A stretch of 64,000 bases of DNA from Candidatus Krumholzibacteriota bacterium (GTDB lineage Bacteria > Krumholzibacteriota > Krumholzibacteriia > JAJRXK01): contig JAJDAC010000005.1 in NCBI GenBank assembly GCA_029262065.1, positions 1-64,000 on the forward strand, written 5' to 3'. Of this stretch, positions 7,305 through 18,719 are shown one piece after another (position 1 is the stretch's first letter; each line of letters begins with the position of its first letter). Below the pieces are notes generated by a model. The model ran no database searches. It saw nothing but the letters and a program-made list of their open reading frames with translations, and had not been told where the DNA came from. The translations under genes and the position numbers were made by a program.

Positions 7305-8150
7305 ATGCGTCGGGGAATCGGTGGCGAGCTAATTCTATTGGGGCTGGCCCTCGGGTTCTTGTGGTACGGCTACGGAACCTCGTCGGGTGAATCGGCGGGC
7401 TTTGAACTCTACGCGCCCGACGAAGGCGTGGTGCGTGTGGTTTCCTGGAACGTGGGAGTGAGCGTGACCGACGGCGGGGTTGCGCTGCCGCCCGAGGCAG
7501 AGGCGCACGTGGTGTCGGCGTTGGGAGCGCTCGCGCCTACCGTGGTTGTGCTGCAGGAACTGCGGGATCTGGATCAACTGGAACGGTTGCTCGACGCCCT
7601 GGGTGACGAGTGGCGGGGCGTGTTGGGTGCATCGTACGAGGGGCGCCGCGTGGCGGTGTTGGCTCCCGCCCGCGCGCTGCGCGCACTGCGGGGTTCGGCG
7701 GGCGATGGGTCGAGCCTGGGGTTTCGGTTGCGCCTGGCCGACGAACTGCGTCTGACCGGCGTGGCCATACACGCCGATGCGCTCAGTTCTCGGCTGCGCA
7801 ACCAGCAGGTGGGGCAAGCGGTGGAGCTGGTCGAAAACGTCGACGGGCCGGTGCTGCTGGCCGGTGACCTGAACATCGACCTGGATCTGGACAAGCGCCG
7901 TGACCTGTTTTCCGACGACCAGTATCTCGACGTGGAAACCTACAACTACCTGGCCGAACGGTTCGTGGACGCCACGTTGGGCACGGGGTCCACGGCCGAA
8001 CCCGACCGTCGCCTGGACTACGTGTTCGTGTCGGGCGGATGGTGCGAAGTAGTTGCGGCGGGGCCGTGGCGACGACAACGCGCGCCGGGCATGGACCATG
8101 ATCCGGTGGTGGCCGACCTGCGGCCTACCGCGGCGGCGACATCTCGATGA
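7305..8150 (+). CDS. Membrane-anchored endonuclease/exonuclease/phosphatase (EEP) family hydrolase
   Basis: 281 residues. An N-terminal hydrophobic segment (about residues 8-24) should anchor or export the protein. The EEP metal and catalytic motifs are all present: VSWNVG, LQEL (metal-binding Glu), GDLNIDLD (catalytic Asp and Asn), RLDYVFV and the terminal MDHDPV with the catalytic His. The family includes neutral sphingomyelinases, inositol phosphatases and nucleases. Next to lipid head-group and acyl-transfer genes a phospholipid or sphingolipid phosphodiesterase is plausible, but this is inference. Its 3' end overlaps the convergent CDP-alcohol phosphatidyltransferase by 26 nt. Confidence 0.88.
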   Translation: MRRGIGGELILLGLALGFLWYGYGTSSGESAGFELYAPDEGVVRVVSWNVGVSVTDGGVALPPEAEAHVVSALGALAPTVVVLQELRDLDQLERLLDALGDEWRGVLGASYEGRRVAVLAPARALRALRGSAGDGSSLGFRLRLADELRLTGVAIHADALSSRLRNQQVGQAVELVENVDGPVLLAGDLNIDLDLDKRRDLFSDDQYLDVETYNYLAERFVDATLGTGSTAEPDRRLDYVFVSGGWCEVVAAGPWRRQRAPGMDHDPVVADLRPTAAATSR

Positions 8151-8871
8151 GTCGTCGTGAAATCCAGATGGTGCGGAAGATCGACGTGCCCATGGTTCCC
8201 ACCGCAATGATCACCAGCAGGATGAGCATGAGGAATCCGGTTTCGCGTCCCATGGCCGCTGATACGGTGGGGTCGAGAATGGCGCCGAAGCCCAGCAGCA
8301 ACATGCGCTCGGCGCGCTGCAACACACCCAGTTTGCACAGCACGCCCAGGCTCTCGCCGCGCGCGCGCGTGTAGCTGACCAACAGCGATCCGCCCAGACC
8401 GGTAACCACGATCACCACCGGCCAACCCGATCCGTAGAATGCGGCCAGTCCTATGAACGCGAACAGCTCGGCGTAGCGGTCGAGCGTGCTGTCGAGGAAT
8501 GCGCCCATGGGCGAGTCCACGCCTTGTGCCCGCGCGATCTCGCCGTCGTACACGTCGGCGATGCCACTCAACAGAATCATGGCGCCGGCCCACGGCAGCA
8601 GGTCGCGCGCGAAGAACACCGTACAGGCGATACTGAACACGATACCCAACGCGTTGAACACGAACGGCGACGTATTCAAACGCAGGAAGAAGGCCTTGCT
8701 GGGGTTCAGGAACCAGTAGAACCAGTTGCGTACCCAGAAGCCCATGACGAAGCTGCCGCCGCGACCGGTGGTGTCGCCGCTGGCGCGCCCCTCGGGGGTG
8801 ATGCGGTACACGACCATGGAAGCCAGGGCCAGACCGATGGCGCTGAGCAAGGCGACTATCTCAGTTCTCAT
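8125..8871 (-). CDS. CDP-alcohol phosphatidyltransferase family protein
   Basis: 248 residues with about six membrane helices. The full active-site signature D-x2-DG-x2-AR-x8-G-x3-D-x3-D is present, starting at DVYDGEIAR and ending FLDSTLD. The enzyme transfers a phospho-alcohol group from a CDP-activated donor to an acceptor alcohol, at the inner membrane. The N-terminal ~70 residues are longer than in the minimal enzymes. It is the last gene of a minus-strand run (acyltransferase, nucleotidyltransferase-fold protein, this gene) pointing away from the alpha-oxoamine synthase operon. Whether the product is a phosphoglycerolipid or a sphingoid-based lipid cannot be told from sequence. Confidence 0.9.
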   Translation of the reverse strand: MRTEIVALLSAIGLALASMVVYRITPEGRASGDTTGRGGSFVMGFWVRNWFYWFLNPSKAFFLRLNTSPFVFNALGIVFSIACTVFFARDLLPWAGAMILLSGIADVYDGEIARAQGVDSPMGAFLDSTLDRYAELFAFIGLAAFYGSGWPVVIVVTGLGGSLLVSYTRARGESLGVLCKLGVLQRAERMLLLGFGAILDPTVSAAMGRETGFLMLILLVIIAVGTMGTSIFRTIWISRRLIEMSPPR

Positions 8872-8927
8872 GATGCTGCTCTCATGACCGTGTTCCCATG
8901 ACTCTGTTCCAGCGAGTTCCGCTCGGC

Positions 8928-9926
8928 TCAGTTCTCATGCGTGGTTCCGTTGGCCGGGGGCAGCGGTGGGCGATTGCGCGATCGTAGCACGCGAATCACC
9001 TTTGGCCACAGCAGCAGAAACGGCAACTTGCGCTCGGCCGGCGTGAGTTCAAGCGGAACGCCGGTGCGACGCTCGGCCTTGCGTGCGATGTATTCCAGCC
9101 AATCGTCGTACGTGAACATGTACTTCGACCAACGTATCGTGGCGCGGGTCTTGGAGCGGCGGAAGTAGTTCTTCCACTTGCGACGCACCGACGCCGACGG
9201 CGGCGTGACGCATGAGTAGCGGCGGGCTTCGCCTTCGGCCGCTATCGGCCCCGTCAATATTCCCTTGGCCACGGCGGCTTCCAATACCGGCGAGTACAAC
9301 TCGAGCAACGCCTCGCGCTGGGCCTCGAACACTTCGCGTACACGGTCGGTCGACTCGGGCCGTATTTCGGCCGAGTACGATACCTGCAACATGCGCTGGC
9401 AATAGTCGGCCGCGGTGAACTCTTCGGGTAGGAAGCAGGGCATCCATTCGACCGTATGGTGTCGGGCGGCGTCCAGCCAGGCCACCAACTCGTTGCCCTC
9501 GTCGGTCGTGCGCGCGTACACTACGGCCACGCGCTGGGCCAACCGGCCCTTGCAAAAGTGATCGGGTGCATCGGCCGACAGCGCGCGTTGCATGTCGGCC
9601 GCGCTCATGACGATGCATTTGCTTTCGGCCCCCAGAGTGTCTTCCATGCGAAGCGACAGGATGTTCGGCGGCAGCCAGGAATTCAGGCGCGCCAGTGCGT
9701 TGGCCCCGCGGCGCAATTTCAATGCATCGCGCAGTGCTTCGTAGAAGGGCTTGTACTCGTCGACCACCAGGATCAGGTCGGTGGCGCTGTGGGGGTTGGG
9801 CGTGGTGCCCACCAGACGCGAGCCGAAGAACAAGACACTGCGCAGACCACCGTCCATTCCCACCAGTACGTCGACCGTGCGTTGCACGGGCGGCGGCAGG
9901 AGTTGCATGGCATCGGTTGTGGTCAC
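8928..9926 (-). CDS. Nucleotidyltransferase-fold protein of unknown function in lipid locus
   Basis: 332 residues, soluble. The N-terminal region has a pol-beta-like start: LFFGSR, then TDLILVVDE. The usual GS...DxD pattern is incomplete because the second Asp of the DxD pair is replaced (TDLIL), so catalysis is uncertain. The C-terminal ~60 residues are basic and proline-rich. Its ATG overlaps the stop of the acyltransferase (ATGA, 9923-9926), so the two are translationally coupled. The head-group transferase follows 56 nt further on. It might activate or sense a head group, but I cannot assign a reaction. Confidence 0.8.
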   Translation of the reverse strand: MTTTDAMQLLPPPVQRTVDVLVGMDGGLRSVLFFGSRLVGTTPNPHSATDLILVVDEYKPFYEALRDALKLRRGANALARLNSWLPPNILSLRMEDTLGAESKCIVMSAADMQRALSADAPDHFCKGRLAQRVAVVYARTTDEGNELVAWLDAARHHTVEWMPCFLPEEFTAADYCQRMLQVSYSAEIRPESTDRVREVFEAQREALLELYSPVLEAAVAKGILTGPIAAEGEARRYSCVTPPSASVRRKWKNYFRRSKTRATIRWSKYMFTYDDWLEYIARKAERRTGVPLELTPAERKLPFLLLWPKVIRVLRSRNRPPLPPANGTTHEN

Positions 9927-10753
9927 GTGGCTCCGTCTGGCCGTGTTTCAACTGGCCCTGTTTCAACCGGCCCTGTTTCGTCGGGCTCTGTTTGCTCTGA
10001 CACGGTCTCGCCGCGCAGTCGCGCCAACTCGGCTACGAGTCGATCGCGCATATCCTGGGCAAAAGCGTCGCGGTCGTCCTGGGCCGGGTCGAAGGCGAAC
10101 GGCCCCAGGCGCGAAACCTTGGCGTCGACCTGGCTGACTCCGGCTGTGAAATCGCCAATGCGCGCGCACTGCCAGAAGCCATCGACCACCATCAAGTAGA
10201 CGTTCCACGGGCGTGCCGAGAGGATAGCCTGGAGCCCGCCGGGCTGAAAGGGCCGGACCTGGCCGTCGCGGGTGCGCCCACCCTCGGGAAAAATCAACAA
10301 CGGTACCTCCATGGTCACCGCGCGTCGGGCCAACTCCACGAGTTGGCGGCGTCCACCCCGGCCGGGATGTACCAGCGGGTGGTCGTAGAGTCGTAACATG
10401 TGAGATATCAACGGGATACCCTTGGCGTAGCGGGCTCGCGTGACAAATAGGGGGTAGCCGGGGCTGCATGCCTGCACGGCCATCGGGATGTCCAACAGCG
10501 ACTGGTGGTTCATGACGATCAGGGTGCCGGCCGCACTGGGAACCGGCGGCGCGGCGGGGATTCGGGCGCCGCCGACCCTCCGGACCACGTTAAAAACGCT
10601 GTTCGCCATGATCTGTTTCCACCATCCCAGGATCTGATGGCGGGAATCTGGTCGGCGCCGGACCCGAGGGGCCACGGAAAACCTTTGAAACAAATCAGTT
10701 AGGAGAAACCACACGCCAATGGTGGCGAGCGTGAGGTAACCTCGGATCCTCAT
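9923..10753 (-). CDS. PlsC-like 1-acyl-glycerol-3-phosphate acyltransferase family protein
   Basis: 276 residues. An N-terminal hydrophobic helix (about residues 5-22) is followed by the acyltransferase motifs NHQSLLD (HX4D) near residue 92 and FPEGGRTRDG about 70 residues later. The protein should transfer an acyl group to a lysolipid or similar acceptor at the inner membrane. The last ~20 residues are an acidic tail made of VETGP repeats from a 15-bp tandem repeat, not part of the fold. It is the first gene of the minus arm of the lipid locus, 230 nt from the start of the divergent alpha-oxoamine synthase gene. Confidence 0.88.
   Translation of the reverse strand: MRIRGYLTLATIGVWFLLTDLFQRFSVAPRVRRRPDSRHQILGWWKQIMANSVFNVVRRVGGARIPAAPPVPSAAGTLIVMNHQSLLDIPMAVQACSPGYPLFVTRARYAKGIPLISHMLRLYDHPLVHPGRGGRRQLVELARRAVTMEVPLLIFPEGGRTRDGQVRPFQPGGLQAILSARPWNVYLMVVDGFWQCARIGDFTAGVSQVDAKVSRLGPFAFDPAQDDRDAFAQDMRDRLVAELARLRGETVSEQTEPDETGPVETGPVETRPDGAT
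9939..9998 (-). repeat. Four 15-bp tandem units in the acyltransferase 3' end
   Basis: Units at 9939-9953, 9954-9968, 9969-9983 and 9984-9998 share the plus-strand pattern GGCCCTGTTTCAACC and encode the ETGPV-type repeats of the acyltransferase tail. Confidence 0.8.
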
Positions 10754-10983
10754 GGCCCTAACTCACTTCCTGGAACGATTTGGGTCATCTTTAGTACCAA
10801 AACCTCGTGGCGATGGTTAGAATTGGTCGCTATCTAGGGGTCATCTTTGCCCAGACTTCACTCCGGCCTTCCTGACCGGTTCTCCCCGCGACGCATATCT
10901 CCGCGACGTGTTCTTAGCGACCGGTTCTAACGACCGGATCTAACGACCCAAAGGGACAACCCGATAAAGCCTGTTGGACGATC
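10754..10983. promoter_or_regulatory. Divergent control region of the lipid locus with direct repeats
   Basis: The 230-nt gap between the two arms should hold both promoters. GGGTCATCTTT occurs twice (10782-10792 and 10838-10848). GACCGG[T/A]TCT occurs three times (10874, 10919, 10932), the last two as tandem 13-nt copies with TCTAAC. These may be regulator sites. No clear -10/-35 pair was found. Confidence 0.45.
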
Positions 10984-12324
10984 GTGAAACCATTGAGACA
11001 ACCTGCGGAAAACCTAGAAACGTCTGTCCCAGAAGACAACGGTACCAAGCCGGCCACCGACCAGGATGCCGCTTCCAACTACTGGGACTACGACTACAGC
11101 AACTTCTACTCGGGCGCCGGCTTCGACGCGTTCGACATTCTCGATCCCTTCGATGCATGGTGGGAGCAGGCGCGCCCGCGTGGCTACTATTTGTTTGGCC
11201 AGCCCATAACGACGGCGCCGGGCACGCGCGTGCATCTGGTTGAAACCAAGGGGAACACCAAGCTCGAGAATCTGGTGAACCTGGCCTCGTACAACTACCT
11301 GGGTTTGTCATACCGACCCGAGGTCATTGCGGCGGCCCAGGAAGCAATCGGCCGGTACGGTCTGGGAGCCTCGGGCTCGCCGATCCTGTCGGGCACCATC
11401 GATCTGCACGAAGAGCTGGCCGAGAAGGTAGCGCGGTTCAAGAACAAGGAATCCGTGCTGCTGTTCCCCACCGGGTACAGCGCGAACCTGGGCGTGATTT
11501 CCGGCCTCATGCGACCGGGCGACCTGGTCGTGGCCGATCAGTACTCCCACGCCAGCATCGTCGACGGCGCCATTCTCTCGAAGGCCAAGACCCGATTCTT
11601 CCGCCACAACAACGCGGCCGACCTGGATCGCAAGCTACAGGGCTTCTCCGGCAAGAAGCTGGTGGTCATTGAAGGCGTGTACTCCATGGACGGCGACCTG
11701 GCTGCGTTGGCCGACATCGTCGAGGTATCGCGCAAGTACGGCGCGCGCATCCTGATCGACGAGGCACACTCGGCCTTCCTGTTCGGCGAGCACGGACGCG
11801 GCGTGGCCGAACACCTGGGCCTGGACGACGAAGTCGACATGCACCTGGGCACGTTCTCGAAGAGCCTGGGCGGTATGGGTGGCTACGTTGGTGGATCCAC
11901 CAAGTTCATCAACTACCTGCGCGGCTTCGCCCGCTCGCGCGTGTTCTCGTGCGCGCTGTCACCGGGCGTGGCGGCGGGACTCATCGCGGCGCTCAAGATC
12001 GTCGAGGAAGAGCCCGAGCTGCGGGCGAAGTTGTGGGAGAACGTCGCGTTCCTGCAGGAACGCCTGCGCAACGCCGGCGTGGACATAGGCGATAGTGAAT
12101 CGCAGGTCATTCCCATCATGATCCGCGACGATGCGCGCATCTTCTCCATCGCCGAGGAACTCATCCACGGGGGCGTGTATCTGAATCCCATCCGCTATCC
12201 AGCGGTGGGTAAGCATCGCTCGCGGTTCCGCATTTCCGTTTCGGCCGCCCACACCCGGGACGACCTCGAGGAAGGCGCCGATATCATCATCCGGGTGCTC
12301 AGGAAGAACGGTATATGCAGCTGA
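10984..12324 (+). CDS. Alpha-oxoamine synthase (serine palmitoyltransferase-like), PLP-dependent
   Basis: 446 residues with a GTG start. The fold-type I signature is complete: NLASYNYLGLS, the HGT-type segment GSPILSGTIDLHEELAEKVA, DEAHS (Asp 269, His 272) for the cofactor ring, and HLGTFSKSLGG with the Schiff-base Lys at 303. The family condenses an amino acid with an acyl-CoA or acyl-ACP, releasing CO2, to give an amino ketone. Members are serine palmitoyltransferase, AONS (BioF), KBL and ALAS. I favour the serine palmitoyltransferase type because the neighbours are a lipid kinase, an acyltransferase, a head-group transferase and a reductase, and no biotin gene is present. The ~60-residue extension before the core is longer than in BioF. 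The stop overlaps the next gene by 10 nt. Confidence 0.85.
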   Translation: MKPLRQPAENLETSVPEDNGTKPATDQDAASNYWDYDYSNFYSGAGFDAFDILDPFDAWWEQARPRGYYLFGQPITTAPGTRVHLVETKGNTKLENLVNLASYNYLGLSYRPEVIAAAQEAIGRYGLGASGSPILSGTIDLHEELAEKVARFKNKESVLLFPTGYSANLGVISGLMRPGDLVVADQYSHASIVDGAILSKAKTRFFRHNNAADLDRKLQGFSGKKLVVIEGVYSMDGDLAALADIVEVSRKYGARILIDEAHSAFLFGEHGRGVAEHLGLDDEVDMHLGTFSKSLGGMGGYVGGSTKFINYLRGFARSRVFSCALSPGVAAGLIAALKIVEEEPELRAKLWENVAFLQERLRNAGVDIGDSESQVIPIMIRDDARIFSIAEELIHGGVYLNPIRYPAVGKHRSRFRISVSAAHTRDDLEEGADIIIRVLRKNGICS

Positions 12325-12977
12325 CGAAATACGGATTCTCCCACGCGGTGAGCGCGTTCTTCGAAATGCCCACCGAGTTGGCCAAGAATCTCCTGCCCCG
12401 GCATCTGCAGCCGTTGGAAGTGCAACACGGGTCGGCGGTATTCGCCGTTACGGCGTTCGACTTCACCGAGAGCATGGTGGGCACGTATACCGAGATCGTA
12501 CTTGCCGTCATCGTGCCGCCGCTGTTGGAAGCGGGTCAGCAGTTTCCCAAGAGCGCGTTCTACCCGTACCTGGTGGGTACCAACACCCCCGAGTCGCGTG
12601 CGCACGCCATCGAGCGCTGGCATCTGCCGCATCACATGGCCGACGTCGACTGCGACTTCGCGGTTGAGGGTGGCGCCATGAACGTGCGCGTGCACGATAA
12701 CGACAAGCCCATCCTGGAAATGTCCGTGCACGAACACGAGTGGGGAAAAACCAACGACCTGTACCAGGCGTTCATGACCGACGAGCAGAAGCGCTACAAG
12801 GTCGACATCCACATGAACGGCGAATTCTCCGAGCACGAAGAAGAGAGCGGAAGCCTGAAGCTTCACAATCACCCCATGCTCGAAAAGCTGGAACCGGCTG
12901 AAATCAACACCTACCCGTTTCGTGAGCTTTGGATGAAGCAGGGTATGCAGACGTTCAACGAGCTGGAAACCATCTAG
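12315..12977 (+). CDS. Acetoacetate decarboxylase-like protein lacking the catalytic lysine pair
   Basis: 220 residues, soluble. The overall pattern resembles the acetoacetate decarboxylase superfamily, with a GRE..GFPKK-like segment. Here that segment reads ERWHLPHHMADV (about residues 100-111), so the Lys-Lys pair that forms and tunes the Schiff base is replaced by His-His (106-107). A classic decarboxylase mechanism is therefore unlikely. It might act as a lyase, isomerase or binding protein on the beta-keto product of the preceding synthase. Translation is coupled to that gene by a 10-nt overlap, and the lipid kinase follows 7 nt after its stop. The family call is by eye and moderate. Confidence 0.7.
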   Translation: MQLTKYGFSHAVSAFFEMPTELAKNLLPRHLQPLEVQHGSAVFAVTAFDFTESMVGTYTEIVLAVIVPPLLEAGQQFPKSAFYPYLVGTNTPESRAHAIERWHLPHHMADVDCDFAVEGGAMNVRVHDNDKPILEMSVHEHEWGKTNDLYQAFMTDEQKRYKVDIHMNGEFSEHEEESGSLKLHNHPMLEKLEPAEINTYPFRELWMKQGMQTFNELETI

Positions 12978-12984
12978 GCGCGCC

Positions 12985-13914
12985 GTGTCGCGCACCTTCG
13001 TCATCTTCAATCCCGCTGCCGGTAGAGGTCGATGTGCCAAGCGCATCGAGCTGTATCGCAGTCTGCTCTCGAGTCATGGCGTGGAGTACGACCACGTGGT
13101 GACCGAGCGCGCGGGCCAGGAAATCGAACTGGCCGACCGCGCCGCCGCCGGAGGCTACGACACCGTGGTGGCGGTGGGCGGCGACGGTACCTGGAGCGTG
13201 GTGGCCGACCGGCTGGTGCGCTCGGGCAATCGCAACGTGAGCCTGGCCCTGCTACCCGGCGGCACCGGCAACGACTTCGGCAAGACCTGGGGCATCTCGT
13301 GGGACGAGCCCGAAGCCGCCGTGGCCGGTATTGCCCGCGGCCAACGCCGCACCATCGACGTGGGCCGGGTGGAAGACCGGTACTTCCTGAACGTAGTGGG
13401 CCTGGGTTTCGATATCGCCGTGATCGACGACGCCGAGAGCGTGCCGCTGCTACGCGGTGACGCGGTCTACCAGTTCTCAGCCATGCGCCAACTGTTCCGA
13501 TTCCCGGGCATAGAATTCGAACTGATTGGCGGCGAAGCCGATGCCCACGCCGGTGGTGCTACCAGCCGCCGGGTCGAGCGGCGTAAGTACCTCATGTTGA
13601 CCATCTCCAATGCGCAGTACTTCGGCGGTTCGTTTCACATTGCTCCCAAGGCCAGCCTCGAAGACGGCAAGCTGGACGCCGTGGCCATCCACGACGGCGG
13701 ACCGCTTACCCGCGCCAAACTGTTCCAGCGCGTGGGCAAGGGCAACCATCGCCACGGCGAAAGCGTGACCATGTTGCAGGACGCGCGATTCGAGGTGGTG
13801 CTGAACGAGGCAGTGCGTTACGAAGTAGATGGCGAAGTGCTGGCGTCCAAGAGTTCCATCCTGACCGTGGAGTCGGTGCCAGGCGCACTGGACCTTATCG
13901 TACCGGCAAGCTGA
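12985..13914 (+). CDS. Diacylglycerol/sphingosine (LCB5-type) lipid kinase
   Basis: 309 residues with a GTG start. The DAGK catalytic domain is complete: IFNPAAGRGR at the N-terminus, VAVGGDGTWS (GGDGT nucleotide loop) and LLPGGTGNDFGKTWG. The C-terminal beta domain ends in a conserved VDGE (YEVDGEVL). The enzyme uses ATP to phosphorylate a lipid alcohol such as diacylglycerol, a sphingoid base or ceramide at the membrane surface. In Caulobacter a member of this family is a ceramide kinase, so its place directly behind an oxoamine synthase supports a sphingoid-like substrate. That substrate is inferred. Confidence 0.9.
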   Translation: MSRTFVIFNPAAGRGRCAKRIELYRSLLSSHGVEYDHVVTERAGQEIELADRAAAGGYDTVVAVGGDGTWSVVADRLVRSGNRNVSLALLPGGTGNDFGKTWGISWDEPEAAVAGIARGQRRTIDVGRVEDRYFLNVVGLGFDIAVIDDAESVPLLRGDAVYQFSAMRQLFRFPGIEFELIGGEADAHAGGATSRRVERRKYLMLTISNAQYFGGSFHIAPKASLEDGKLDAVAIHDGGPLTRAKLFQRVGKGNHRHGESVTMLQDARFEVVLNEAVRYEVDGEVLASKSSILTVESVPGALDLIVPAS

Positions 13915-13946
13915 GCCGTCTCTATATACTGAATCGGAGTACCCCC

Positions 13947-15176
13947 ATGCGTGGCGTGGTCTTTGACGGAGCGATTCCCCGCTACCTGGCCACCAAGGCG
14001 GCCGGCGCGGTGTCTTCGCGTTTGATGACCGGTCCGCGGCGCTGCACCAACCTGCTCGACGACGTGGATGTACCCACGCTGCCCGGCCCGCGTTGGGTAC
14101 GCTTGCGCACGCGCCTGGGCGGAATCTGCGGCAGCGATCTGAATCTGGTGAACCTGAACGTTTCGCCTTCGATGTCGCCGTTCTCCACTTTTCCCTTTGT
14201 CGTTGGTCACGAAAACGTGGGCGTGGTGGAAGAGGTGGGCGCCGAGGTGGCGCGCGTGTCGGTGGGCTCGCGCGTGGTGGTGAATCCGCTGCTCCCGTGC
14301 GCGGTTCGCGGCATCCACCCGCCGTGCCGGCACTGCATGGAAGGCAAGCCCTCGCGCTGCGAAAATTTTCTGGAAGGCGACATCCCCGCCGGCATGCTGC
14401 TGGGTACGTGCAAGGGCCTGGGCGGAAGCTGGGGCGAGCACTTCGTGGCCCACGAAAGTCAGCTGTACGAGGTACCGCAGGGCATGTCCGACAAGGCCGC
14501 CGTACTGCTGGAACCCCTGGCCACGGTGCTATCGCCGATCATGGCGGGTCCGCCCGCGGCCGACGCGAAGATCCTGGTCATCGGCGGTGGCTCGATCGGT
14601 CTGCTGGCCGTGGCCGCTTTGAAAGCCATTTCGCCGCACTGCGACGTAACATTGTTGGCCCGCTACGACTTCCAGGCCCAGGTGGGCGAGGAACTGGGCG
14701 CCGACCGCATCGTACGCGGCAAGCGAGGCTACTTCGCCGAGCTGTCGCGCCTTACCGACGGCAAACTGGTGAAGCCCATTCTGGGGAAGAAGATCCACAT
14801 CGGCGGCTTCGACGGCACCGTGGTTTGCGTCGGCTCCGACGGCGCGGTCGACGACGCGCTCCGATTCACGCGGGCCGGCGGCAGCATTCTGCTTCTGGGC
14901 AACGTGTCGACCCTGAAGAAGGTCGACTGGACCCCGCTATGGCAGAAGGAACTCTCCCTGCGCGGCAGCTTATGCTACAACCTGCACTCGCACGAGGGCG
15001 CCCCCCGCCACGCGTTCGACCTGGGACTCGAGATCCTGGGTTCACGCAAGGGCACCCAACTGGAATCGCTGGTAACGCACACGTTCCCGCTCGAAGCCTA
15101 CCAGGACGCCCTACGAATCGCCGGCAGCAAGTCGAAGGAAAAGTGCATCAAGGTCGCGTTCCAGTTCGATAACTGA
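13947..15176 (+). CDS. Zinc-dependent medium-chain dehydrogenase/reductase
   Basis: 409 residues, about 50 longer than typical, with an N-terminal extension before the core. Catalytic zinc ligands are GICGSD (Cys) and GHENVG (His-Glu). The structural zinc lobe is C-x(10-12)-C-x2-C-x7-C around PPCRHCMEGKPSRC. The nucleotide-binding loop is VIGGGSIGLLAV. It probably interconverts a ketone and alcohol with NAD(P)H. As last gene of the plus arm it could reduce the amino ketone made by the oxoamine synthase, a job done by unrelated SDR enzymes elsewhere. A KBL/TDH-like threonine route is the main alternative, but the lipid kinase between them argues against it. CGGAGT precedes the ATG. Confidence 0.85.
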   Translation: MRGVVFDGAIPRYLATKAAGAVSSRLMTGPRRCTNLLDDVDVPTLPGPRWVRLRTRLGGICGSDLNLVNLNVSPSMSPFSTFPFVVGHENVGVVEEVGAEVARVSVGSRVVVNPLLPCAVRGIHPPCRHCMEGKPSRCENFLEGDIPAGMLLGTCKGLGGSWGEHFVAHESQLYEVPQGMSDKAAVLLEPLATVLSPIMAGPPAADAKILVIGGGSIGLLAVAALKAISPHCDVTLLARYDFQAQVGEELGADRIVRGKRGYFAELSRLTDGKLVKPILGKKIHIGGFDGTVVCVGSDGAVDDALRFTRAGGSILLLGNVSTLKKVDWTPLWQKELSLRGSLCYNLHSHEGAPRHAFDLGLEILGSRKGTQLESLVTHTFPLEAYQDALRIAGSKSKEKCIKVAFQFDN

Positions 15177-15215: not shown

Positions 15216-16235
15216 CTAGTACCGTGCCTTCATGCTTCCGAACGAGACGGTTTCGGTGGGTACCGTGCCCACGCTGATCGAACCCTGTCCGGTCGCCGTT
15301 TGGAAAGGCGCGTCAAAAATGACCCCGTCGAATCCGGTAACCACCTCGTTGGAAGTGGTAACCAATGTGGAACTTCCTGGTACTCCCGTCTTGAACGTGA
15401 CCGTTCCCCACGTGGCTCCAAAGGTTGCAATAGCGAAGTCGGCCTCGTTTTGAGCCGTGAAGGTCAAATCGACTGACCCTGCCGTGATGTTGCTGGCGTT
15501 GGCAGACCAATTGACCAAGAATGTGTTCACCGAAACAAACGACGCAGCCGCCGAATCCCAGGTTAGCCGCACCGAGGCCTCGCCGATGTAGTATCCCGTG
15601 AAGGTACACTTGGCTCCGTACTGAACGGCTGATGAAACCGGCATGACTACGTTGGTTCCCGCTGGCCCTCCAACGTCATCCAACTGGTACCGGAACACGT
15701 CGGCGAAAGGACCGCAGATTGCACTGGGATACACCATGAAGCATCCGTTTGGTACCACGCCCTGCCCGTCGACGAGGGCGAAGTCCTGATCAACGGTGTT
15801 GCAGTTCGTGTAGACCGGCGCCGTGTCGGGAGCCAGCGGAGTGACGCAAATCGGAAGATCGGACAGTCCGGTCGCGAACACGCCGTACTGGTAGCTGATG
15901 AGCGGCGTGACTCCAATTCCGTTTACGCAGCTGGCTGTCGTGACCACCCAATCGTTGGGGCCGTAGATTGCCAGCGGCGACCGGGTACCGATGCTACTCG
16001 ACCCAAACAGCAGGATTGCGGGGTCGGCATCCACGGTGAAACGGAACCCATTGATGCCATCGGGAACATCGAGAGCCAGAACGTAGAAGTTGTTCGTGAC
16101 GGTGAATGGCGTCGGGTTGGCGGTGACCTCCCGGGCCATGGTGCCGGCGAAGACGCCGATTGTGGGCTGCGCAGCGGCCTGGCTGGCCAAGAACAAGCAA
16201 AGGGCAAGGATCGAAGCAAGAGTTCTGCGATACAT
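15216..16235 (-). CDS. Secreted protein, paralog of the gene at 17715-18719
   Basis: 339 residues with a clear signal peptide (ALCLFLASQAAAQ). The mature protein starts with PTIGVF and has two beta-rich halves. The first contains NNFYVLALDVPDGINGFRF; the second contains VRLTWDSAAASFVSV and looks cohesin-like. Six or more cysteines suggest disulfides. It lacks the FlgD tail and instead ends TETVSFGSMKARY, nearly identical to the tail of its paralog (TETVSFGRVKARY). The two genes flank the HNH endonuclease on the same strand. No function assigned. Confidence 0.85.
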   Translation of the reverse strand: MYRRTLASILALCLFLASQAAAQPTIGVFAGTMAREVTANPTPFTVTNNFYVLALDVPDGINGFRFTVDADPAILLFGSSSIGTRSPLAIYGPNDWVVTTASCVNGIGVTPLISYQYGVFATGLSDLPICVTPLAPDTAPVYTNCNTVDQDFALVDGQGVVPNGCFMVYPSAICGPFADVFRYQLDDVGGPAGTNVVMPVSSAVQYGAKCTFTGYYIGEASVRLTWDSAAASFVSVNTFLVNWSANASNITAGSVDLTFTAQNEADFAIATFGATWGTVTFKTGVPGSSTLVTTSNEVVTGFDGVIFDAPFQTATGQGSISVGTVPTETVSFGSMKARY

Positions 16236-16328: not shown

Positions 16329-17579
16329 TCATTCAACCAGCCGAGCGAACTCCCTGGCCCGGTCCAGGATTCGCCCCGAGGACACACCCGCGGCAATCAG
16401 GCGACTCTCTTCTGTATGCCAGTTCACGTGACACGCGCGGCAAAGAGCGGCGCAGTTGACCACGGAGTGGGCACCTTTGTTCGTTCGCCGTTGTAAGTGG
16501 TGCACGTCGACGAACTGCGTACTGTGACACCTGCGACAACTGAAACGGTCTCGCGCCAGCACGGCGCGCCGAACGCGTGGTGGTATGGTCGATTTTGTGC
16601 TGCCGTCGCCGCGAATCTCAACGGCATCGCACTGCCCGGCGCTTGCTTCGGGTCGTGAAAGCGTTCGCATGCCGCGGCGGGTAGGTGTCGCAACCGACTC
16701 GCACGACTCGCATCTATACAATACGACCTGCGCCGCGGGGCGAACCGAGGCGGACTGAACCGCCGTGGACTGAACCGAGGTGGGCTGAATAGAGACAGTT
16801 TGCTTTGGGGCAGGTGACGATGCGTCGTGCGCCGAAGTTTGTTCTGTGTTGGCCGAATCAACCTTCACCCGGGTAACCCGTTGTGAAGTCAGCGACTCGA
16901 GTGCAGCGAGCAGTGTTTCCCCGGCCTTGCGGTGACCCTGGCGGCGGGAGCGTTCCATGAGCTTGTCGAACTGGGCGGCTTGAAGTTGAGTGAGCTCGAA
17001 GCTGACGCGGCGCGGCGGATCGCCGGCGGGAAGATCGGGCGTATCGATCAGCAACGACTGACCTGGCGCGGGCTGCCCGGGCACGGGTTGGCCTGGCGAG
17101 GGTTGGCCCACCGACAGCTGGTTCGGCGACGACTGACCCGGCAGTTGGCCCAGCGCCGGCTGCTCGACCCGCGCCGGCTTCCTTGCGCGCTTCTTCACCT
17201 GGTCGGCTTGCTTCTCCAGCTCGCGGCGGGGTACCGACTTCGCGCGCTCGACCCACTCGTTCTGGTTCTCTGGCGTGGCGACGCTGCCCACGGTACGGGC
17301 TTTCGTCCAGCTGATCTCCCCCGACGACAGCGCCTGCTCGAGCGCGGGCAATCGTTTCATGTCTTTGGCCAGTCGCACGAATTGCATCGTCTTTCCGTGC
17401 GAAAACTTCAGGCCCTCCGTGGCGTAGTGATGGATCGACGAGAAGCCCAATGGCCGGAAGTGCTCTTCCTGCATTACCTGGGCGAACGCGAGTACTGCGC
17501 TTTGGTTCGCCACTTCGAGGGCGGCAAGCGCACGGATCAACACGCGATGCGCTTCGCGGGCGCGCGTGATGGTCGACAT
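16329..17579 (-). CDS. HNH endonuclease family protein with Pro/Gln-rich linkers
   Basis: 416 residues from ATG 17579 (MSTITRAREAHRV). An upstream in-frame ATG adds 33 residues without family character. The N-terminal ~130 residues are helical, like the DUF222-type domain often joined to HNH nucleases. A linker of GQP/GQS repeats follows, then a helical segment, then a Ser/Gln/Pro linker. The C-terminal HNH domain reads VLARDRFSCRRCHS, FVDVHHLQRR, VNCAALCRACHVNWH: two CxxC zinc pairs and the His-Asn-His residues. It sits between two paralogous secreted-protein genes and contains one copy of the 12-nt word CACCCGGGTAAC. It could be a selfish or mobile-type nuclease; no restriction partner is nearby. 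Confidence 0.85.
   Translation of the reverse strand: MSTITRAREAHRVLIRALAALEVANQSAVLAFAQVMQEEHFRPLGFSSIHHYATEGLKFSHGKTMQFVRLAKDMKRLPALEQALSSGEISWTKARTVGSVATPENQNEWVERAKSVPRRELEKQADQVKKRARKPARVEQPALGQLPGQSSPNQLSVGQPSPGQPVPGQPAPGQSLLIDTPDLPAGDPPRRVSFELTQLQAAQFDKLMERSRRQGHRKAGETLLAALESLTSQRVTRVKVDSANTEQTSAHDASSPAPKQTVSIQPTSVQSTAVQSASVRPAAQVVLYRCESCESVATPTRRGMRTLSRPEASAGQCDAVEIRGDGSTKSTIPPRVRRAVLARDRFSCRRCHSTQFVDVHHLQRRTNKGAHSVVNCAALCRACHVNWHTEESRLIAAGVSSGRILDRAREFARLVE
16866..16883 (+). repeat. Copy A of the CACCCGGGTAAC word (inside HNH gene)
   Basis: CACCCGGGTAACCCGTTG, identical over 18 nt to copy D at 48971. It encodes part of the HNH protein linker region on the minus strand. Confidence 0.6.
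17057..17162 (-). repeat. Degenerate tandem repeat encoding GQP-rich linker
   Basis: Units of about 15 nt encode PGQ/GQP/GQS motifs in the linker of the HNH protein. The copies are degenerate but in frame. Confidence 0.6.
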
Positions 17580-17714
17580 GGGTTGTTCCAAACCGGGAGG
17601 GCTTGCCTTGGGGAGGCAGGAACAACTTAGAATGAACAAGTATGGATTGCAATAGAAGCCAGCGTTGACGCTCGTCAAAGAACAAGCGCCAACGCGTCGA
17701 CGAGAAGTTCGCGT

Positions 17715-18719
17715 CTAGTACCGTGCCTTCACTCGTCCGAACGAAACGGTCTCGGTGGCGACCGGTCCCACGGTGATGGATCCCTGACCGCTCATGACGT
17801 CGAATGTACTACCGAAGCCACTTACGACTTCGTTCGATGTTGTGACTACGGTCGCGGTGCCAGGCGCTCCCGTGATAAAGGTGACCTCGCCCCATAGGTT
17901 CGGCTCGAATCTCGAATTGACGTAGTCGACCTCGTCGGCGGTGGTGAAGCTTATGTCGGCCGAGCCGGGCGTAACGTTGGAGGCGGTTGCCGTCCAATTC
18001 GGCAATGTCGTGGATACCGACGCGAAGGTTGCGACCGCGGGGTCCCAGGTGAGCTGGGCCGATAGAGTGCCGACATAGAACCCTGTAAAGATGCACTTGG
18101 CGCCGAACTGCAACTGGGTGGAGATCGGCAGGGTGACCGACGTACCGGTGGGACCTCCGGTGTCATCCAGTTGGTAGCCAAACACAGTTGGAAAAGGACC
18201 GCATGTGGACGTGGGGTACAACAACGCGCAGGCGTCGGGCGCTACCCCTTGGCCGTCGGTGGGCGAGAACGCATGTTCCTGGTCGTCGCAGTCGATGTAT
18301 ACCGGAGCGGCTTCGGACCCGAGCGGACTTACGCAAATGAGAATGTCGGATACGCTCGGTGTGAAGATTCCGTACTGGTAGTCGATGAGCGTGGTTGCAC
18401 CCACCCCGTTCAAGCAGTTCCCCAGGCTGACGACCCACTCGTCGGGTAGGTAGATGGCCAGAGGCGAGCGCTGCCCAATGTACGTGCGATTGAGTAGCAA
18501 CACGGTAGGGTCGGCGACGACTTCCAGGCGGTAACCGCTCATGCCGTCGGGCACATCGAGCGCGAGCACATAGAAATGGTTGTCGACCGTGAACAAAGGC
18601 GGGTTGCCGGATATCGACGTGGCGTTCTGATCGAGAAACACACCGATCGTCGGCTGGGCGACCGCCGTCGAGACCAGAAGGGCGGAAGCAGCGACAAACA
18701 GCAGTAGTTTGCGAATCAT
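17715..18719 (-). CDS. Secreted protein, paralog of the gene at 15216-16235
   Basis: 334 residues with signal peptide (LLLFVAASALLVSTAVAQ). It is colinear with the other copy throughout: AQPTIGVF, NHFYVLALDVPDGMSGYRL, SPLAIYLPDEWVV, YQLDD.GGPTGT, AQLTWDPAVATFASV and the tail TETVSFGRVKARY. Protein similarity is moderate, so the duplication is not recent. DNA just before the two stop codons still matches (CTAGTACCGTGCCTTCA). Role unknown; a cohesin-like second half is inferred from the strand pattern. Confidence 0.85.
   Translation of the reverse strand: MIRKLLLFVAASALLVSTAVAQPTIGVFLDQNATSISGNPPLFTVDNHFYVLALDVPDGMSGYRLEVVADPTVLLLNRTYIGQRSPLAIYLPDEWVVSLGNCLNGVGATTLIDYQYGIFTPSVSDILICVSPLGSEAAPVYIDCDDQEHAFSPTDGQGVAPDACALLYPTSTCGPFPTVFGYQLDDTGGPTGTSVTLPISTQLQFGAKCIFTGFYVGTLSAQLTWDPAVATFASVSTTLPNWTATASNVTPGSADISFTTADEVDYVNSRFEPNLWGEVTFITGAPGTATVVTTSNEVVSGFGSTFDVMSGQGSITVGPVATETVSFGRVKARY

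Follow-up and report, generated by a model that had tools for sequence, protein, structure and literature searches.

A conserved gene set around a serine palmitoyltransferase-like synthase in Krumholzibacteriota, and a candidate route to a phosphate-bearing sphingolipid-like lipid

Which lipid might be made by two divergent arms of lipid genes in a Candidatus Krumholzibacteriota genome, and do the arms belong to one pathway at all? The genes lie in a window of 64,000 nucleotides (GenBank assembly GCA_029262065.1, contig JAJDAC010000005.1, positions 1 to 64,000, forward strand), where the original prediction had placed a sphingoid-like or amino-ketone lipid locus, centred on an alpha-oxoamine synthase (AOS), at 7305-15176. 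This view has held up, as the synthase groups with serine palmitoyltransferases (SPTs) and the two arms are linked as one conserved gene set. We give a probability of just under 60% to the reading that the seven genes of this set make a single phosphate-bearing, sphingolipid-like lipid, activated by CTP and probably carrying inositol phosphate as its head group. The gene set, its linkage, the folds, the intact motifs and, for the activation step, the homology to proteobacterial sphingolipid loci are observed; from these we infer all substrates, the order of steps, the head group, the acylation step and the role of a partner protein with the acetoacetate decarboxylase (ADC) fold.

Two linked arms

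All eight open reading frames (ORFs) of 7305-15176 were confirmed by ORF reading and Pfam/NCBIfam matches, with the families and 230-nt divergent region as first described. The features, with the evidence for each, are:

10984..12324, plus strand: AOS, SPT-like, with a clade-specific N-terminus bearing a DYDYSNF motif (Pfam/NCBIfam, PDB match, motifs, tree)
12315..12977, plus strand: ADC-fold (ADC-like) protein, catalytic Lys replaced by His106 (Pfam ADC, ADC fold)
12985..13914, plus strand: lipid kinase of the YegS/diacylglycerol kinase (DAGK) family (TIGR00147 above cut-off, GGDGT)
13947..15176, plus strand: zinc-dependent MDR dehydrogenase, proposed keto-base reductase (Pfam, ligand motifs)
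9923..10753, minus strand: PlsC-type acyltransferase, HX4D and EGxR (Pfam, motifs)
8928..9926, minus strand: predicted Tam41-type lipid-phosphate cytidylyltransferase (AlphaFold model, structure match, hmmsearch, profile homology)
8125..8871, minus strand: CDP-alcohol phosphatidyltransferase, phosphatidylinositol-phosphate (PIP)-synthase-like (NCBIfam ranking, PDB matches, signature)
10754..10983, no strand: divergent intergenic region between the arms, 230 nt (ORF coordinates)
7305..8150, plus strand: EEP-family hydrolase, adjoining the set but no member of it (Pfam, linkage survey)

Scanning 84,980 species genomes for the AOS gave 320 relatives; the best 80 were kept as orthologous loci, mostly from Gemmatimonadota, Acidobacteriota and Krumholzibacteriota. 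The closest relatives of the window's AOS are found in two genomes of the same family. In six same-class relatives the AOS is 66-73% identical and the neighbouring genes roughly 40-60%, some of these loci being cut, or lacking the kinase or the MDR. The same arms recur in other phyla at 40-70% identity, which places the locus far beyond chance.

The tightest link is between the first two genes of the plus arm. The ADC-like gene lies downstream of the AOS in 78 of the 80 loci, the remaining two contigs ending there, and its start overlaps the end of the AOS by 10 nt in the window and by exactly 10 nt in 49 loci. About half of the 80 also keep the lipid kinase, the PlsC-like gene, the nucleotidyltransferase and the CDP-alcohol phosphatidyltransferase. 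Where at least 4 kb was available on both sides (58 loci), the kinase and the Tam41-like arm were both present in 32 loci and both absent in 21, with the kinase alone in four and the arm alone in one; the locus counts and the Fisher test are uncorrected for shared ancestry. Within the class, the AOS clade is carried by 7 of 58 genomes, and precisely these seven also have the ADC-like and Tam41-like families, again with no correction for ancestry.

The arms diverge in some loci, the window among them, and in others form a single co-oriented operon, as in Vicinamibacteria; their occurrence together in many genomes bears out the proposed connection between them. The EEP hydrolase, originally counted with the locus, does not stand next to the rest of the set in any of the six relatives inspected, nor in the 80 orthologous loci, so the conserved set is taken as 8125-15176 rather than 7305-15176. 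No sigma-70-like promoter match was found in the 230-nt gap (10754-10983). One ORF cluster among the loci was set aside as antisense shadow ORFs, corresponding to no gene.

The synthase and its ADC-fold partner

The AOS retains all the residues of a fold-type I enzyme (DEAHS, the TFSK lysine, HASI and the C-terminal Arg), in line with the original claim of a complete pyridoxal phosphate site: DEAHS is present in 80 of 80 orthologs and the Schiff-base-lysine motif TFSK in 70. Its top PDB match is the SPT of S. multivorum, which together with that of S. wittichii (3a2b and 2x8u, respectively) represents its closest characterised relatives. In a tree whose reference set comprised E. coli BioF and KBL, two annotated ALAS, both of these SPTs and other SPT-like proteins, the window's clade (support 100/99) falls in a 100/97 group with all the SPTs. 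Approximately unbiased (AU) tests rejected a union with KBL (p 0.008) and with ALAS (p 0.041), and KBL-type paralogs are separate genes in the class. The phylogeny thus supports the AOS as belonging with the SPTs, as a clade of its own that is distinct from KBL and ALAS; its separation from BioF has support as well, with a borderline AU test. A place inside the BioF or KBL clade, which would have told against the original prediction, was not what the tree gave. It differs from characterised SPTs in this separate clade, in its own N-terminal motif and in scoring below every NCBIfam AOS model cut-off (SPT models NF047599, 349.7 of 500 bits; NF047600, 370.1 of 640; NF047603, 283 of 670), for which reason it is named SPT-like and not SPT.

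Two further AOS loci were seen on plasmids. In Legionella lytica (L168) the AOS has genes for phosphosulfolactate synthase and phosphatase next to it and may belong to a sulfonolipid-type locus, and on Thioclava plasmid p2 (L159) it occurs with an acyl carrier protein (ACP), an AMP-binding protein, a ketosynthase and a class III aminotransferase, resembling a polyketide-like amino lipid locus.

The partner protein matches the ADC fold (Z 22.1), the best unrelated fold scoring 7.4, and its matches across the superfamily (ADC, MppR and Swit_4259) span Z 19-22. A sequence profile of the family run against the PDB found no ADC, its kinship being seen by Pfam and structure only. The likeness extends to the active-site Glu60, kept in 65 of 65 sequences. 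The LPK motif of the ADC family, whose lysine is the established catalytic Schiff-base residue, aligns with LPH (His106) in the window, and no Lys is conserved in the 65 sequences, a comparison made against annotated ADC family members and not ones of known activity. A Schiff-base decarboxylase is therefore unlikely. The strict coupling to the AOS suggests that the protein works on the keto product of that enzyme. Literature searches found no paper linking acetoacetate decarboxylase with SPT.

Candidate enzymes of activation and head-group transfer, and their companions

The original prediction had seen a nucleotidyltransferase fold in the second gene of the minus arm, which stands and can be refined to a predicted Tam41-type lipid-phosphate cytidylyltransferase. 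The AlphaFold model (pLDDT 91) matches bacterial Tam41 with CTP (7ecd) with Z 21.9 over 244 residues and mitochondrial Tam41 (6ig2) with Z 17.5, the next unrelated fold reaching 9.0, and hmmsearch connects the protein to 6ig2 (E 0.003). It shares with these CDP-diacylglycerol (CDP-DAG) synthases the two-domain fold and the GS and D-x5-D region. It differs in having only ~14% identity over the 244 residues, a Pfam Tam41_Mmp37 score below the gathering score (19.3 of 24 bits, with 7 of 34 orthologs at E<=0.01), and a C-terminal block, KxxxTFxxWLxYIxRKxxRRxG, common to proteins of SPT loci.

A tblastn search with the window protein against 72,556 plasmids gave 18 records, 17 of which are the same 17 found with a Roseomonas homolog, the other being a weak Thermus match (E 0.4). 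The 17 are relatives of one 'hypothetical protein' carried by Roseomonas, Pseudomonas, Diaphorobacter and Qipengyuania plasmids. Six of these loci were read: a DAGK-family kinase is adjacent or nearby in all six, and an SPT or AOS with an ACP lies in the same stretch in four. In Roseomonas and Pseudomonas the Tam41-like protein stands directly behind the kinase, in loci with an SPT or AOS, an ACP and a CDP-alcohol transferase (LptFG also being present in R. mucosa and Pseudomonas); in Diaphorobacter the kinase and two CDP-alcohol transferases are near, and in Qipengyuania only the kinase was seen. Profile-profile comparison of the window family with these proteobacterial relatives gave E 3e-41 over 293 columns, compared with 0.1% probability for a control profile. 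Since the nucleotidyltransferase is of Tam41 type and related to proteobacterial SPT-locus proteins, the minus arm is read as a lipid activation and head-group arm.

Pfam Tam41 had no match in 14 control genomes (Caulobacter included) or in the proteobacterial relatives, and the R. mucosa protein matches no Pfam family. On its plasmid (L161/L175, 145281-148224) this 'hypothetical' forms an operon with a CDP-alcohol transferase and a DAGK, next to an ACP and an SPT, the latter passing its NCBIfam cut-off.

All 13 locus genomes from outside the class encode the ordinary CDP-DAG synthase, CdsA, as do 5 of the 7 within it. As nearly all locus-bearing genomes have CdsA as well, the Tam41-like enzyme is an extra one, and probably a dedicated one.

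The CDP-alcohol transferase keeps the signature DX2DGX2AR..GX3DX3D in 41 of 41 orthologs. Its NCBIfam ranking is led by archaetidylinositol-phosphate synthase (129 bits) and PIP synthases (102 and 88), followed at a distance by PgsA (24), the scores remaining below curated cut-offs (129 of 180 for archaetidylinositol-phosphate synthase, 88 of 170 for PIPSynth). Myo-inositol-phosphate synthase (MIPS) was considered as a locus-specific marker and rejected, since it is spread across the class and 34 of 36 locus genomes encode it, whether or not they carry the arm. Two MIPS genes occur in the window's genome (G000:C21:57717 and G000:C2:202685), against one in nearly all relatives; at a distance of 15 kb from one of the two there is a second CDP-alcohol transferase gene.

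The remaining enzymes have intact motifs. The kinase scores 139.7 bits against TIGR00147 (cut-off 118.65), has GGDGT in 44 of 44 orthologs, and in the locus survey is linked to the arm of PlsC, nucleotidyltransferase and CDP-alcohol transferase genes. HX4D and EGxR are found in 40-41 of 41 PlsC-like orthologs, and the zinc-ligand motifs of the MDR are conserved. The MDR occurs in nine divergent loci, and an SDR lies upstream of the AOS in eight of eight co-oriented arm-bearing loci; the two are never found together, and neither is nearby in 16 divergent loci. The SDR's best NCBIfam match, below cut-off, is mycolate reductase, a beta-keto lipid reductase. Because the SDR takes the place of the MDR in other loci, the MDR fills the reductase slot, as had been proposed. 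Neither CerS nor CerR is annotated within the locus, the part of the genome to which this check was confined.

Pathway, rival readings and known systems

The set offers one candidate gene for each step: condensation, reduction, acylation, phosphorylation, CTP activation and head-group transfer. In the proposed pathway, the AOS would join a long acyl thioester and an amino acid, probably serine, in a condensation that gives a 3-keto base, whose ketone would be reduced by the MDR (or SDR in other lineages). The base may then be acylated by the PlsC-like enzyme and phosphorylated on its primary hydroxyl by the DAGK-family kinase, after which the Tam41-type enzyme would transfer CMP from CTP onto the phosphate, forming a CDP-ceramide-like liponucleotide. 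Finally, the PIP-synthase-like enzyme would replace CMP by an alcohol phosphate, for which inositol-1-phosphate is the likeliest candidate. The ADC-fold protein may bind or process the keto intermediate rather than decarboxylate it.

Several observations weigh against this pathway. A glycerophospholipid route, too, would call for precisely PlsC, Tam41 and PIP synthase. In the window's genome (5.77 Mb, 95.6% complete) no CdsA-family match was found, although CDP-alcohol transferases are present, so the Tam41-like enzyme there could serve ordinary phospholipids; either the assembly has a gap here or the Tam41-like enzyme has taken over the function of CdsA. In Gemmatimonadota, loci that make up about half of those with AOS-ADC have no kinase and head-group genes nearby, hence the AOS-ADC pair can do without these. 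The AU test for AOS with BioF was borderline (p 0.059), leaving BioF not firmly excluded. Of the residues shown to matter for inositol-phosphate binding in MtPIPS (S132, K135, R155 and R195; PMC4634129), the Ser and the RxxR Arg are kept, K135 is replaced by Arg, and R195 is not confidently alignable. Genomes that lack the arm have MIPS just as those with the arm do, so inositol phosphate is at hand, yet this is no diagnostic sign of the head group. Lastly, the kinase and the CDP-alcohol transferase are related only distantly to their proteobacterial counterparts.

The main rival is that two products are made: (phospho)sphingoid bases by the plus arm, and phosphatidylinositol (phosphate), as a dedicated glycerolipid, by PlsC, Tam41 and the PIP-synthase-like enzyme, along the classical path from phosphatidic acid (PA) through CDP-DAG to PIP. 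Characterised Tam41 and PIP synthase do act on PA and CDP-DAG (PMC7018664, PMC4634129), and the first place of inositol-phosphate transferases in the NCBIfam ranking, the near-universal MIPS and the missing CdsA all fit. We nonetheless regard this as unlikely, given the separate CdsA in nearly all other locus genomes, the Tam41-like relatives that adjoin lipid kinases in SPT loci, the one-operon order in Vicinamibacteria, and a head-group arm that almost never occurs without the kinase.

A less probable reading still is that the AOS makes a non-sphingoid long-chain amino ketone, for example from glycine or another amino acid, which with the ADC-like partner leads to a signal or secondary metabolite, as may hold in the AOS-ADC-only loci of Gemmatimonadota. 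The sub-threshold SPT scores and the abundance of such loci favour it, whereas the 100/97 grouping with SPTs and the kinase and activation genes, which imply a lipid alcohol, speak against it. Upstream, several of these Gemmatimonadota loci (e.g. L057, L060, L071, L088, L123) instead carry an alpha/beta hydrolase, a distant MDR or an SDR from a different family. A housekeeping BioF or KBL in a chance neighbourhood is scarcely credible despite the borderline BioF test, with KBL rejected and KBL-type paralogs being separate genes in the class, no biotin genes among the immediate neighbours, and a linkage conserved in several phyla that by itself makes this improbable.

How far, then, does the single-lipid pathway resemble known systems? 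The original suggestion that it was not described before is only partly right. In the phosphosphingolipid locus of Caulobacter (CC_1152-CC_1168), the counterpart genes are required genetically for these lipids: CC_1160 encodes a ceramide kinase, and CC_1161, which has a CDP-DAG-synthase-like domain, is needed to make ceramide phosphoglycerate, the product that follows; CC_1159 is a CDP-alcohol transferase (PMC11324152). Such genes beside SPT were thus already known genetically, and the authors suggested an NDP-activated ceramide (PMC11324152). This locus and its Roseomonas and Pseudomonas counterparts share with the window a linked SPT-family synthase, DAGK-family kinase, Tam41-like protein and CDP-alcohol transferase, the Roseomonas and Pseudomonas Tam41-like proteins being homologous to the window's. 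Going by gene content, gene order and the annotation in that paper, with no sequence test, CC_1161 may be their ortholog. The window set differs in having no ACP, acyl-AMP ligase, epimerase-type CerR or LptFG, and instead has ADC-like, MDR (or SDR) and PlsC-like genes; its AOS forms a separate clade and its CDP-alcohol transferase is PIP-synthase-like.

The inositol lipid clusters of Bacteroides (BT_1522-1526, and an alternative cluster of NTP-transferase, CDP-alcohol transferase and HAD genes; PMC9246714) likewise have a PIP-synthase-like CDP-alcohol transferase tied by biology to sphingolipids. There, phosphatidylinositol is made first and its head group then moved to ceramide, or CDP-inositol is proposed (PMC9246714), whereas the window's nucleotidyltransferase is of the Tam41 type, in which the lipid side is activated, and stands beside a lipid kinase and an AOS.

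Outside the set, two paralogous secreted-looking proteins (15216-16235 and 17715-18719, both minus strand) are 55% identical over 340 columns, and between them lies a gene with an HNH-like C-terminus and P-x-P-G-Q repeats (16329-17678).

In its fullest form, the proposal is of a CDP-ceramide-type route to inositol-phosphate sphingolipids, widespread in Gemmatimonadota, Acidobacteriota and Krumholzibacteriota, that is built by an SPT clade not described so far, together with an obligate ADC-fold partner that lacks the lysine, and in which the Tam41-like family is a sphingolipid-phosphate cytidylyltransferase found also in proteobacteria. We put this forward tentatively, and would sooner expect some part of it to fail than the whole to stand; 'CDP-ceramide' appeared in none of the papers searched. 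If true, the proposal would explain the unassigned step after ceramide kinase in Caulobacter. The locus provides a concrete, assayable candidate for the missing step from ceramide-1-phosphate to head-grouped phosphosphingolipids in bacteria, and adds an ADC-fold family free of the catalytic lysine and tied to an SPT-like enzyme in nearly every locus. It also supplies a genetic reason to expect sphingolipids from abundant uncultured phyla in which homologs of ceramide synthase and CerR may be missing.

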